Source of the DNA: an uncultured Bacteroidales bacterium
GTDB lineage: Bacteria; Bacteroidota; Bacteroidia; Bacteroidales; UBA932
Assembly: GCA_944326325.1 (NCBI GenBank)
Contig: CALVDQ010000003.1
Span: 1-64,000, forward strand
Length of the DNA stretch: 64,000 bases
Direction: 5' to 3'
The notes under the pieces: model-generated
What the model was told of the DNA's origin: nothing
The model's input: only the letters and a program-made list of their open reading frames with translations
Database searches by the model: none
In this document: piece after piece, positions 16,914 to 34,395 of the stretch
Layout: the number at the start of each line of letters is the position of its first letter
Position numbering within the stretch: position 1 is the stretch's first letter
Translations under genes and position numbers: made by a program

Positions 16914-17491
16914 TGAACATCACAGTAAAACTATACGGGCAGGACAGCTATGTCTGCCGGCCGGACACTACCTGGGAGAGAGAATGCAGAGACTTTTTCT
17001 CTCCCGGTTTCGTAAAGAAGATTATGTACTCCCCGGTAGTATTTGTCCGAATATCCAAAGCCGGAAAATTCATTTCCGGGAAATTCGTATCCAGGTACTA
17101 TGACGGACTCGGTTTCGGGGTTCTGCTCTATCCCGGGGAAATTCTGGAAAGCGGAGGGCCCGGGAGTGTCGCTTTCGCATCAATGCTTGACCACACGTCC
17201 CTGCTTCCCTACCCGCTGTACCTGCCGGAAGTCTTCTCCACTGAAGGGAATGTCTTCACGTTCAGCAAGGAGGAGGAAATCCTGTTCACGGCTGCGACCG
17301 GACATGAAATCCAGGAAAAGACAGAACAAAGCATAACGGATGCCTCCAGATATGTCAGTATGCGTATAGGCGACATTGTGGCTGTTGAACTTGCAGAGCC
17401 TCAGATACTGGTGGATGAAGACGAAATGAAAGCCGGAATCAGCGCGCATTTCTGTGAAAACGAACTGTTCCGGCTTTCGATAATCAAGTGA
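16913..17491 (+). CDS. Degenerate fumarylacetoacetate-hydrolase-fold protein, probably non-catalytic
   Basis: 192 aa. The order of segments follows short FAH-family proteins of Bacteroidota: VVFVRISKAGKFI, then KFVSRYYDGLGFGVLL, then ASRYVSMRIGDIVAVELAEP near the end. In working family members the first segment starts with ExE metal ligands and the second is followed by an aspartate; here those positions are SPVVF and a glycine/leucine stretch, so the metal site seems lost. The ATG at 16913 overlaps the exonuclease stop by one base (TGATG), which implies coupled translation. An upstream in-frame start (16889) lies inside the exonuclease gene and is unlikely. Function unknown. Confidence 0.6.
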   Translation: MNITVKLYGQDSYVCRPDTTWERECRDFFSPGFVKKIMYSPVVFVRISKAGKFISGKFVSRYYDGLGFGVLLYPGEILESGGPGSVAFASMLDHTSLLPYPLYLPEVFSTEGNVFTFSKEEEILFTAATGHEIQEKTEQSITDASRYVSMRIGDIVAVELAEPQILVDEDEMKAGISAHFCENELFRLSIIK

Positions 17492-17563
17492 GCCACTCAT
17501 GGGATTCGAACCCACGACCTACGCGTTACGAATGCGTTGCTCTACCGACTGAGCTAAAGTGGC
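17491..17563 (-). tRNA. tRNA-Thr(CGU)
   Basis: A 73-nt cloverleaf on the reverse strand: acceptor GCCACTT/GAGTGGC with discriminator U, D arm GCTC..GAGC, anticodon loop TTCGTAA with anticodon CGT, and T arm GTGGG TTCGAAT CCCAT. CCA is not encoded. The closing pair of the anticodon stem (31-39) is A-C rather than a Watson-Crick pair. The 3' end shares one base with the stop codon of the converging FAH-like gene. Confidence 0.95.
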
Positions 17564-27286: not shown

Positions 27287-27343
27287 TTTCCGGCAACCGG
27301 ACAAGACATCATATTATGAGGCAATAATACAGATATTATTTTG

Positions 27344-27414
27344 TTGAGATACCAAGATTCGAACTTGGACAGACAGAACCAAAATCTGTAGTGCTACCAT
27401 TACACCATATCTCA
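27344..27414 (-). tRNA. tRNA-Gln(UUG)
   Basis: A 71-nt cloverleaf on the reverse strand: acceptor TGAGATA/TATCTCA, D arm GTGT..GCAC, anticodon stem ACAGA/TCTGT around loop TTTTGGT with anticodon TTG, and T arm CCAAG TTCGAAT CTTGG. CCA is not encoded. Confidence 0.96.
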
Positions 27415-29659: not shown

Positions 29660-29703
29660 ATCGGATACCGGTCATGGCCGATTATACGGTTTTCATGATA
29701 CGG

Positions 29704-29763: not shown

Positions 29764-31617
29764 ATGAAGAACCGGACTGAAGGCGACATTAAAAAGACAG
29801 GACTGAAGGCATGGCTTCCGGTCCTGTCCCTGACATTCTCGACATTCATATTCAACACTTCGGAATTCATCCCTATCGGACTGCTTTCCGACATTGCATC
29901 CGATTTCGGCATCAGCGAATCCAACGCCGGGATGCTGATCACGGTCTACGCATGGGTCGTGGCTCTTGCCTCCCTGCCGCTGATGCTGGTATTCGCCAAG
30001 ACGGAAAACAGGAAACTGATGCTTTCGGTAACGGCCTTGTTTACAGTAAGCCATATATTTTCAGTGCTCTCCAAAGATTTCTACATGCTCATGATCTCAA
30101 GAATAGGAGTTGCCTGCGCCCATGCGATCTTCTGGTCAATCGTGACGCCCCTTGCGGTAAGGCTCGCACCGGACGGGAAAAAACAGGAAGCTTTGAGTCT
30201 CATAGTTTGCGGATCATCGGTAGCCATGATCGTAGGGCTTCCACTGGGAAGGACCATCGGTCTTTATCTCGGGTGGAGGGCGACATTCCTTGTGACAGCG
30301 GCGCTTGCGGCCGCAATACTTGCTGTCCTGGCGGCTGTCCTGCCGAAAACGCCGAGCGACAATTCCATTTCCCTGAGGAAACTTCCGGCACTTATAAAGT
30401 CTCCGGTCCTGCTCAACATCTATCTCGTCACACTCATCGCCATCACCGGGCATTTCACATGCTACAGCTATATTGAACCGTTCCTCGGGCAGACAGCAGG
30501 ATTCGGAAGCAGGTTGATCACGCTGACACTCACGCTGTTCGGCATCGTCGGTCTGATAGGCAGCTATATCTTTGCCAGATACTACGACAGATACCGGATA
30601 CAGTTCATCTCCGCTGCCGTCACCGGAATCTGCCTGTTCCTGATGCTGATGCAGGCCGCCGCATTCAGCCATGCCGGGATGCTCGTACTGTGCATACTAT
30701 GGGGATTCGCCATCAATTTCTACAACCTGTCCTTCCAGTCCGAGATAATCCGCAACGCACCCAACGGGACTTCTGTCGCGATGTCCATATACTCCGGGAT
30801 ATACAATATCGGCATCGGAGGCGGAGCCTTGGCCGGAGGATACGTATGCTCCGGGATATCGATATCCCATATCGGATATGCCGGGGGTGCCGTGGCGCTG
30901 GTCGCAGCCATAATATGCTTCAGGAAACTCATTCCGGCCATGAAAAAGGATACGGTGAAAAGCGTAAGGAAGGAGATCGGAGATTATATTTACGGAAGCA
31001 TCGTCCCTGAATACGCCGCATTCGATCCGGCGCACAGGGAAGACCATGCCCGGACAGTGATAGACAACTCGATGGAATTGTACAGAAATGCCCCTGAGGA
31101 CATCCGCCGCAGCATAGATCCCGAAATGCTTGCCGTAGCGGCTGCCTGCCACGATCTGGGCAGGATCAACGGCAAGGAAAGGCATCATCTGGACTCCGGA
31201 ATCATCATCAGGGCTGACAGGAACCTGAGGAAATGGTTCAGAGAGGAACAGATAGAGACCATAGCCCAGGCCGCTGAAGACCACAGGGCATCGGCCAGGA
31301 ATGAACCGAGAAGCATATACGGCAAGATAGTGGCAGAAGCCGACAGGCTGATCGACCAGGATACGATAATCCGGCGCACTCTCCTGTATGGCAAGGCAAG
31401 CTATCCGGATATGTCCTCGGAAGAACAGATCGGCAGGGCCCTGGAGCACCTTTATGAAAAGTACGGGAACGACGGTTATCTCAGGCTGTGGATACCATGG
31501 AGCGACAATGCCCGCAGGCTGGCACGTTTCCGCTCTCTTCTGGCCGACAGGAAAGCGGCCAGAAGAGAAGTGGAAAGGATATGGAAAGAACTGCAGGAAC
31601 TTCCGCTGCCGTCATGA
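29764..31617 (+). CDS. MFS sugar-efflux-type transporter fused to an HD phosphohydrolase domain
   Basis: 617 aa in one uninterrupted frame. Residues about 15-395 are a twelve-helix major facilitator of the DHA1/SotB type (NTSEFIPIGLLSDIASDF, then GMLITVYAWVVALASLPL). From about 400 a soluble HD-superfamily domain follows, with DHARTV, the metal-binding pair CHDLG (H and D near 462-463), HHLDSG, EDHRAS and EADRLID, and ends RIWKELQELPLPS. Elsewhere in Bacteroidota I know the HD domain as a separate protein. The start at 29764 was chosen over 29674 because the latter would include the promoter. A transporter coupled to cytosolic phosphate-ester hydrolysis is an inference. Confidence 0.85.
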   Translation: MKNRTEGDIKKTGLKAWLPVLSLTFSTFIFNTSEFIPIGLLSDIASDFGISESNAGMLITVYAWVVALASLPLMLVFAKTENRKLMLSVTALFTVSHIFSVLSKDFYMLMISRIGVACAHAIFWSIVTPLAVRLAPDGKKQEALSLIVCGSSVAMIVGLPLGRTIGLYLGWRATFLVTAALAAAILAVLAAVLPKTPSDNSISLRKLPALIKSPVLLNIYLVTLIAITGHFTCYSYIEPFLGQTAGFGSRLITLTLTLFGIVGLIGSYIFARYYDRYRIQFISAAVTGICLFLMLMQAAAFSHAGMLVLCILWGFAINFYNLSFQSEIIRNAPNGTSVAMSIYSGIYNIGIGGGALAGGYVCSGISISHIGYAGGAVALVAAIICFRKLIPAMKKDTVKSVRKEIGDYIYGSIVPEYAAFDPAHREDHARTVIDNSMELYRNAPEDIRRSIDPEMLAVAAACHDLGRINGKERHHLDSGIIIRADRNLRKWFREEQIETIAQAAEDHRASARNEPRSIYGKIVAEADRLIDQDTIIRRTLLYGKASYPDMSSEEQIGRALEHLYEKYGNDGYLRLWIPWSDNARRLARFRSLLADRKAARREVERIWKELQELPLPS

Positions 31618-31664: not shown

Positions 31665-33248
31665 TCACAAGCCGGAAGCCTGATGCGCCGGTCTCAAAAG
31701 ATCCAACACCACCTTCACCGGATTAAAAGTCTCCAACGGAACCTCCACGAACAAAGTATTCCAGTCACTCATGGAACCGTTCCAGAGCCCAGGCAGTTCG
31801 AGAGCCTTAAGTTCACGTCCCTGGTAGCTTTTGGAACTGATGAAGCCGGCATCGTTGTCGACATGGTCGAGAAGATTGAAACTGTTGCCTTTGTAGTCAT
31901 GGAGACAGCAGACGATATCCACAGGATTGAAATGGGTTGCAGCTGCAAGTGCCGCAGAAGCCTGAGGATCGGATTTGTTTATCTGGGCGCCTTCAAGAAT
32001 CTGCAGGGAGGTGGAACCGTCCTTCTCCTCAATGATGAACGGACCGCCGCCGGGCTCGCCCTGGTTCTTGACCATACCGCAGACACGGATAGGACGGTCC
32101 AGCTTCTCGCGGAGCTTCCTGACACGGGTCTTGCAGTCCTCGGCATACGGCATCCGGATGCAAAGCTCCTTGATCAGGAACTCCTCGATATCGTTGCAGA
32201 GGTTCTGCACCTCCGGAGTCATGTAACGGTCGTCATACCTCTGGGTGAGGCTCGGGATATAAGGAGGAAGAGCCTGAGACATGCCTTCCCCTGTAACGGC
32301 ATCGAGTTCGCGGAGATAGCCGAAAATCTTGTCCCGCAACTCCACTGCCTTGCCCAGAAGCACTTTCTTGTATTTCGCCGTTACGGGCAGGAACCTCTCG
32401 TTGGCGACATTGTCGATATTCTTTATGGAAACAACCTCCTCGGAGATTTTGTCAAGATTGTATATGAGGGCGCCGTGGCCGGCAGGACGGAAGAGCAGCC
32501 TTCCGTCATCGGTACGGAAAGGCTTGTTGTCAGCATCGACGGCGATGGTGTCCGTAGCCTTGTCCTGATAGGTGAACGTTATGTTGAAGCGTACCCCGTA
32601 TCTCTTCTCATACTCATCCTTCACGGCCTTGTAGGCATCTTCGAACAGCTGCCTGTGCTCAGGCGATATGGTCACGACGATATTGGCCGATCCGTCCGGG
32701 TTCCTCATGTAGTCCTGGGCCTCTACCAGATGCTCTGCAAATGCGGTACGCACCTCTCCGTCCGGATATTTATGGAATTTCAGCACGCCTTTAGGCTTGG
32801 AGCCGTAGGCCAGCCCCTCCTCCGTGAGTGTCCTCGACAATATCTTCATGCGGCTCTCCGCCGTGTCGGAAGGAGTCCCGAACAATTCCGGATCGTAGAA
32901 GGCGAAACGGGCGATGTTGGCCACGAATCTGGCGGCCGGTGAATCGGAAGCCACATCCTGCCCCTTCTTCAAGGTGTCCAGACCGCTGAAAAGGTCCTTG
33001 AACATCCGCGACGCGGCTCCTGAAGCCGGCACGAACTTGCATTTCCCGGCAATATCAGCATTTTCGTAATACTCTGCAGCCCTGGAGGCTTCCTCATCGT
33101 CCAGGACACAGATACCGTTGCCCGGAGTGGCCGGAGCCACTATCTTCATCCATGGAAAGCCTTTCCTGAAAAGTTCCACCTGCGCCTCGGCAGATGCCAC
33201 AGACGAGCCCCTCGACTCTATCTGCTTGATGTCTTCTTTGTTGAACAT
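31665..33248 (-). CDS. DUF4301 family protein
   Basis: 527 aa. The N-terminus (MFNKEDIKQIESRGSSVASA) and the block KFVPASGAASRMFKDL near residue 80 are hallmarks of DUF4301, found in Bacteroidota. The S-G-A-A-S-R stretch resembles a phosphate-binding loop and a nucleotidyltransferase-like fold has been my guess, but no activity is established. The open frame runs to 33362 and would overlap the pdxB 3' end; the methionine at 33248 gives the family N-terminus. It is last in a recF-DUF721-pdxB-DUF4301 run, 94 bases after pdxB. Confidence 0.75.
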   Translation of the reverse strand: MFNKEDIKQIESRGSSVASAEAQVELFRKGFPWMKIVAPATPGNGICVLDDEEASRAAEYYENADIAGKCKFVPASGAASRMFKDLFSGLDTLKKGQDVASDSPAARFVANIARFAFYDPELFGTPSDTAESRMKILSRTLTEEGLAYGSKPKGVLKFHKYPDGEVRTAFAEHLVEAQDYMRNPDGSANIVVTISPEHRQLFEDAYKAVKDEYEKRYGVRFNITFTYQDKATDTIAVDADNKPFRTDDGRLLFRPAGHGALIYNLDKISEEVVSIKNIDNVANERFLPVTAKYKKVLLGKAVELRDKIFGYLRELDAVTGEGMSQALPPYIPSLTQRYDDRYMTPEVQNLCNDIEEFLIKELCIRMPYAEDCKTRVRKLREKLDRPIRVCGMVKNQGEPGGGPFIIEEKDGSTSLQILEGAQINKSDPQASAALAAATHFNPVDIVCCLHDYKGNSFNLLDHVDNDAGFISSKSYQGRELKALELPGLWNGSMSDWNTLFVEVPLETFNPVKVVLDLLRPAHQASGL

Positions 33249-33342
33249 ACCAGTTTTCGTTATCGAAGCCCATCTCGAGGCTTCATTGTTATTAATCAGT
33301 GTATCGTCCCGTGCGGTTCCGCCGTCCCCGGAGGATTCCGGT

Positions 33343-34395
33343 TCAGTCCACACATATCTCACGGCGGTACTTGTACTCCGACCTCATCTTCTCGAAGTTT
33401 TCAGGTGCCATCCGGAACATGAAATCATCCGTAAATATAGGATAATTATATTGAAAAACCGAAGTTATTTCCCCCTGATTCTTTCCCTTAAGGTCAAGAT
33501 GTACCGGCGCGTACTCCTCCCTGTCGTAATCGGGATAGAAATCATACAGCCCGGTTATACCGAAGTGTCTTGCCACGGCCTGAACGGAAGAGGCGGTACC
33601 GTTCAGCTTACCCTGGAAGGAATATCCGGCGATATGCGGCGTGGCAATGTCGACCATGTCCATCAGGGCCAGATTTATGTCCGGTTCATGGTTCCAGGTA
33701 TCGATGATGACTGGCCCGAGCTTGGGAATGGCCTCCATCAGCGCAGCCTCGTCCACGATCTCCCCTCTCGCAGCATTTATGAAAAAGGCACCGGGACGCA
33801 TCATTCCGAAGAAGTCCGCGTCTGCCATATTCCTCGTAGTCCCGTCGAGCGGGGTATGTATCGTAACTATGTTCGAGGAAGAAAGAAGATATTCCAGAGA
33901 ACAGAATCCGTCCGGTCCTTCCGCCTCGGCACGCGGCGGATCGTACCTGAGAACCTCAAATCCGAGGTAGCCGGCCATCCGCTCCACTTTCCTGCCGACG
34001 TTCCCGACTCCGATTATGCCCATGACAGGATGGTCGAGCCGGATGGATTTCCGCGAAGCCGTACCGTAGAGGGCGGAAAACACGTACTGCATCACACCCC
34101 CGGCATTGCAGCCCTGGGCATTGTGTACCTCAATCCCCTTCCTGCTGCAGTATTCCAGGTCAATATGGTCTGTACCTATGGTCGCCGTAGCTATCATCGA
34201 TATGCCGGTCCCCTCAAGCAGGGCGGCATCGCATCTGGTCCTCGTCCTGATGACAAGGGCGTCAGCGTCAAGGATATCATCCCGGCATATTTCCCGTCCA
34301 TCCTTGTAGACCACTGCGGCATACGGTTCGAATACCCCTTTCATGAAAGGGACATTGCTGTCGGCCACTATCTTGATTCTTTTCTCCATCATCAT
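33343..34395 (-). CDS. pdxB: 4-phosphoerythronate dehydrogenase
   Basis: 350 aa D-2-hydroxyacid dehydrogenase of the vitamin B6 pathway, oxidising 4-phosphoerythronate. It opens IKIVADSNVPFMKG, has the NAD-binding MGIIGVGNVGRKVE in the middle, catalytic-region blocks RGEIVDEAAL and the histidine in ATPHIAGYSFQGK, and a C-terminal extension of about 70 residues matching the PdxB dimerisation domain. Three consecutive ATGs (34395, 34392, 34389) are possible starts. The first overlaps the DUF721 stop as ATGA. Confidence 0.88.
   Translation of the reverse strand: MMMEKRIKIVADSNVPFMKGVFEPYAAVVYKDGREICRDDILDADALVIRTRTRCDAALLEGTGISMIATATIGTDHIDLEYCSRKGIEVHNAQGCNAGGVMQYVFSALYGTASRKSIRLDHPVMGIIGVGNVGRKVERMAGYLGFEVLRYDPPRAEAEGPDGFCSLEYLLSSSNIVTIHTPLDGTTRNMADADFFGMMRPGAFFINAARGEIVDEAALMEAIPKLGPVIIDTWNHEPDINLALMDMVDIATPHIAGYSFQGKLNGTASSVQAVARHFGITGLYDFYPDYDREEYAPVHLDLKGKNQGEITSVFQYNYPIFTDDFMFRMAPENFEKMRSEYKYRREICVD

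Follow-up and report, generated by a model that had tools for sequence, protein, structure and literature searches.

Sugar exporters of the SotB/YdeA type (PRK03545) belong to the DHA1 family of MFS transporters and carry no C-terminal enzyme domain. Such exporters usually have 12 helices, with both ends of the chain on the inner side of the membrane. The HD superfamily includes YpgQ, an HD nucleotide pyrophosphohydrolase of Bacillus subtilis (PDB 5DQV), in which Mn is bound by H29, H58, D59 and D124 and the nucleotide by H25, R136, F140 and H158, while an H...HD...H...H...D pattern is diagnostic of a two-metal site (PMC8177086). In the window, by which we mean the whole 64,000-nucleotide stretch of DNA that was analysed and which comes from a gut species of the Bacteroidales, a SotB-like exporter is followed in the same open reading frame by an HD phosphohydrolase, so that, unlike SotB, the transporter ends in an enzyme domain. 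Our literature search on this HD family, its fusions and MFS-HD fusions returned nothing relevant, and no tested substrate was found there for any member of the family.

The fused gene and the active site of its HD part

The gene forms one uninterrupted frame containing both exporter and HD domain, as the first-pass annotation had stated, and matches to MFS_1, PRK03545 and HD are found along its 617 residues. Its parts are listed below.

29764..31617, forward strand: fused gene, 617 aa, a SotB-like MFS exporter and then an HD phosphohydrolase (open frame, Pfam and NCBIfam)
29764..30939, forward strand: MFS part, SotB/PRK03545-like, residues 1-392 (PRK03545 score and ends of free orthologues)
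30940..30969, forward strand: fusion junction and short linker MKKDTVKSVR (alignment with locus L021 of genome G284)
30961..31614, forward strand: HD phosphohydrolase part (invariant residues, AlphaFold model, PDB profile and fold matches, and residue roles in YpgQ, PMC8177086)
29727..29734, forward strand: candidate -7 promoter element TATCTTTG (scan for the Bacteroidota pattern TAnnTTTG)

The Pfam model MFS_1 matches residues 23-335 of the fused protein at 146 bits, and Pfam HD (PF01966) matches residues 427-529 at 33.5 bits, above its gathering cut-off of 22. Against the NCBIfam model PRK03545 ('sugar transporter', SotB) residues 14-388 score 467.8 bits, which exceeds the equivalog cut-off of 401 and suggests, as far as sequence goes, that the entire MFS part is an exporter of the SotB type. 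The same part matches the purine-nucleoside exporter NepI at 131 bits, below the cut-off of that model. The hydropathy of the fused protein is compatible with 12 helices but does not resolve 12; if the exporter follows the norm of its family, the HD domain would be cytoplasmic, since 12 helices with both ends inside would leave it there. Another in-frame ATG is present at 29674, 90 bases upstream of 29764, but we favour the start at 29764 because alignments with MFS homologues from relatives set in at residues 3-16 of the fused frame. The pattern scan also found TAAATTTG, which matches the -7 element, ahead of the orthologue in G284, and a single putative promoter for the fused gene is plausible. 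In a search of the whole assembly the fused frame was the only copy of the HD family, and PADLOC found no match to a defence family. Adjoining the fused gene, at 31665-33362 on the reverse strand of the window, is a gene for a 565-aa protein that no NCBIfam model matches and that presumably resembles DUF4301; tRNA-Gln (27343-27414) and tRNA-Thr (17490-17563) are also encoded on the reverse strand of the window.

We then turn to the HD part, whose residues are numbered from 30961. An alignment of 40 family members (A1) has 48 invariant columns, and the HD motifs that had been described as intact are all invariant in it. The following positions are relevant to the active site.

H29, H64-D65 and D128: metal ligands, invariant in the 40-member alignment
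H75/H76 and H108: possible second-metal positions, invariant in the 40-member alignment
H25, R139, Y143, H163 and K167: nucleotide-pocket positions (alignment and comparison with YpgQ)

The metal ligands make up the H...HD...D signature of the HD superfamily, and the additional H75, H76 and H108 extend it to the dinuclear pattern H...HD...H...H...D (PMC8177086), which suggests a two-metal site. AlphaFold models the HD part as an all-helical domain with a pLDDT of 93.7. Its best match, by profile as well as by fold, is PDB 2PQ7, an uncharacterised HD hydrolase from a Thermotogales bacterium (E 3.6e-10, Z 14.8, rmsd 3.8 over 160 residues); the two have both the dinuclear pattern and a GKI-x-x-ADRL motif in common, although 2PQ7 is free-standing, unlike the HD part of the window. 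YedJ of E. coli (PDB 3GW7) matches with a profile E of 1.5e-8 and a Z of 11.8, but the HD part scores only 17.5-20.3 bits against the YedJ equivalog NF007515, which has a cut-off of 286 bits.

YpgQ and PenF share with the HD part the fold (Z ~11.5) and the spacing of metal and pocket residues, although sequence similarity to YpgQ is low (profile E 0.014) and YpgQ is mononuclear, whereas the HD part has two extra invariant histidine positions. In a profile alignment these YpgQ positions are occupied by the invariant H25, H29, H64, D65, D128 and R139, and by a conserved aromatic residue, Y/F143. H163 and K167 correspond to YpgQ H158 and PenF H174/K178 by spacing only, and with H163 in that role each of the YpgQ pocket residues H25, R136, F140 and H158 has a counterpart. 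Because the invariant residues coincide with those by which YpgQ binds metal and nucleotide, our best guess is that the HD part is a nucleotide phosphohydrolase, a prediction to which the fusion partners of the family, rich in repair and sanitation enzymes, likewise point. HD oxygenases also carry the two-metal pattern, and the HD part may be of the oxygenase type, with which it holds H...HD...H...H...D in common.

The junction and the neighbouring genes in relatives

The closest relative of the fused gene is found in genome G284 (locus L021), with 79% identity over residues 7-611. In G284 the same two genes adjoin each other in the same order and frame, split by a single TAA and a new ATG (...NTNAI-TAA-GAC-ATG-AAG-TCC-ATG-ACA...), and the HD gene begins MKSMTEIRK. 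When the DNA is aligned, the window is without 36 bases that are present in G284, exactly at the junction; the gap is clean and frame-preserving, there are diverged bases on both sides of it, and no single-base indel is seen. Free MFS orthologues extend no more than ~20 residues beyond the IPA motif at the junction, and free HD orthologues begin there. Upstream, G284 and the window share a KefB-like gene, a DedA-like gene and the next gene, whereas the downstream genes differ. In the HD tree the window pairs with G284 (97% support) within a clade of 30 rows, itself strongly supported, whose other members are all free-standing. The dN/dS ratios against G284 are ~0.09 for the MFS part and ~0.13 for the HD part, and both parts are therefore under purifying selection; dS is near saturation in this comparison, and the time it reflects is that of the divergence from G284 rather than of the fusion.

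We searched for the fusion in 400 genomes of the genus, which are a sample of the genus and not all of it. A match was obtained in 309 of them, chiefly to the HD part alone, and MFS and HD stand in one frame in a single genome, the window's own, G284 being interrupted by its TAA. Among the 80 top-ranking HD loci taken from GTDB there is likewise no MFS-HD fusion, and a second draw from the genus, centred on G284, added no genome to those already sampled, as judged from its hits and the non-hits that were listed. The first-pass annotation would give up its reading if the fusion occurred in a single assembly, and within our search it does: no second species has the two parts as one open reading frame.

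Proximity of the two genes is seen in other genomes. In G137, G373 and G259 the MFS gene is immediately preceded, on the same strand, by the HD gene, with 22-42 bases between the aligned stretches, an order opposite to that in G284 and the window. The HD gene lies about 360 bases upstream of the MFS gene in G370 and 2-5 kb upstream in G372, G204 and G349, and the two genes are on separate contigs in, for example, G162, G278 and G073. Adjacency in either order hints at some functional link, and could also result from inheritance plus rearrangement.

Fusion partners of the HD family

The HD family is an uncharacterised family that is common in gut Bacteroidales and within the genus and is unusually prone to fusion; a free member is found, for example, in Phocaeicola vulgatus (L105). 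Of 393 genomes sampled evenly across the order, profile searches detected the family in 30, and in a phylum-wide draw of 198 genomes there was one weak match besides the window. Among the HD matches listed, recognised fusions were counted by hand in 51 of ~258 genus genomes, a sample that is not strictly random and includes related, non-independent genomes. The statement in the first-pass annotation that the HD domain is free-standing in relatives is correct for the clade of the window, where 29 of 30 rows are free, whereas it does not apply to the family as a whole. Two control families were taken from the same genus: for pyrE, 3 of 83 frames were at least ~120 aa over the expected length, and for RidA 4 of 80 frames were overlong, one of them itself an HD fusion. 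Fisher's test on the HD fusions gave p ~0.0002 against pyrE and p ~0.0009 against RidA, values to be read with the non-independence of related genomes in mind. The pyrE frames in G103, G121 and G097 are ~200 aa longer than usual and possibly represent another gene fusion.

The HD family has at least 16 partner families as recognised by Pfam and NCBIfam. The partners are grouped as follows.

Repair and sanitation (Pfam/NCBIfam): Nudix, GAF, MsrA, AlkD-type DNA alkylation repair, Ogt, RidA, aminoacyl-tRNA editing
Other (Pfam/NCBIfam): MnmA, C_GCAxxG redox protein, HI0933-like flavoprotein, PCC/DUF296, beta carbonic anhydrase, HAD phosphatase, shikimate kinase, GNAT acetyltransferase
Without Pfam confirmation: a second GNAT-like domain

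From its cysteine pattern we read the GAF partner as a free-methionine-R-sulfoxide reductase (fRMsr). Triple fusions also occur, with the architecture Nudix-HD-AlkD at L069, L156, L177 and L197 and HD-GAF-MsrA at L184, and several architectures are known from one draft genome each. On a tree of 165 HD domains at least 28 changes are needed to account for 21 states (20 fused architectures plus the free form); the free/fused split alone requires at least 16, of which 7 are imposed by branches with strong support. In this family, therefore, domains have been joined or separated again on many occasions. Six further candidates (L012, L113, L123, L150, L188 and L209) were rejected as antisense or out-of-frame noise. 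At L181 (G001, contig 140) two fRMsr-HD fusions lie in tandem, in frames at positions 2629 and 3576; in the second the HD dyad and further metal residues are gone, and it looks like a catalytically dead duplicate.

The Nudix-HD, fRMsr-HD and HD-AlkD fusions resemble the gene of the window in that the HD family is joined to a neighbouring single-domain protein through a short linker. Their partners are soluble enzymes, in contrast to the MFS exporter of the window, which is the only transporter among the HD partners. Of the partner families, only MFS also occurs immediately next to free HD genes, at 4 of 106 loci; Nudix and AlkD genes were sought in that position and not found, and a search for a general conserved neighbour of free HD genes, as a guide to a pathway, found none. 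By eye, a free HD gene lies downstream of, and on the same strand as, genes for a glycerol facilitator and a glycerol kinase at L059, L061 and related loci (about five in all), which belong to a sister clade of the window's HD. At six loci, L125 among them, a gene that by eye encodes a Fur-family regulator follows the free HD gene after ~11 bases on the same strand.

Origin and possible role of the fusion

One in-frame deletion is the simplest history of the fused gene, because G284 has the unfused pair, the gap at the junction is of 36 bases and the natural ends of the orthologues fall there. On balance we consider it probable, with room for doubt, that the gene arose within one lineage by the joining of two neighbours that run in the same direction and that its HD part is a housekeeping nucleotide phosphohydrolase. 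The ancestor would have had a SotB-type MFS gene followed directly and in the same frame by a small HD phosphohydrolase gene, as G284 does, and the loss of ~36 bases would have removed the stop and start codons and thereby joined the genes. In the resulting protein a linker of ~10 residues would hold the HD enzyme, as a tethered domain, to the cytoplasmic face of a 12-helix exporter. The tethered enzyme would be a metal-dependent nucleotide phosphohydrolase with a YpgQ/PenF-like pocket, doing a job much like that of its free relatives, and the main effect of the fusion would probably be a fixed stoichiometry and membrane placement rather than obligatory channelling.

The fusion is present in one draft assembly of 34 contigs and the nearest relative keeps its stop codon, as would be expected if the genes were separate in the real genome and had been joined by a sequencing or assembly artefact. 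We regard this as very unlikely, since the difference is a 36-base, frame-preserving gap with diverged flanks as opposed to a single-base indel, and HD fusions are frequent, having been found in many assemblies that are independent of one another. It is also distinctly improbable that a free HD protein is made, additionally or mainly, from the internal in-frame ATG at 30940 (MKKDTVKSVRKEI...), which would leave the fusion nearly neutral. That ATG is near the natural HD start, and the HD gene of G284 starts there; no clear ribosome-binding context was seen at it, which is not decisive because the start signals of Bacteroidota are weak.

Functional coupling of the two parts would mean that a sugar phosphate or nucleotide is stripped of phosphate by the HD enzyme at the membrane and that what results leaves through the exporter, or else that the exporter is gated by the HD domain. 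The adjacency of MFS and HD genes, direct in four genomes and looser in four more, weakly favours such coupling, as do active-site residues suggestive of a nucleotide as substrate; the position of MFS genes beside free HD genes and the sub-threshold match to NepI are also in keeping with it. Nevertheless, the HD partners elsewhere are many, unrelated to one another and mostly soluble enzymes without a role in transport, and the two genes are unlinked in many genomes of the genus that have both; we find coupling doubtful.

As a lineage-specific joining of neighbours, the single MFS-HD fusion is a curiosity, and the wider pattern of HD fusions is of more use. We think it unlikely, if worth stating, that the HD nucleotide hydrolase is a mobile house-cleaning module of the Bacteroidales, joined time and again to enzymes of damage repair and sanitation, and that in the species of the window its union with an exporter lets damaged or excess nucleotides lose their phosphate at the membrane and leave the cell as nucleosides. 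Many of the HD partners repair oxidised or alkylated nucleotides, DNA or methionine, and these Rosetta-stone links provide a concrete and cheap hypothesis for the HD family, namely that it may act as a house-cleaning phosphatase of the nucleotide pool or of damage.
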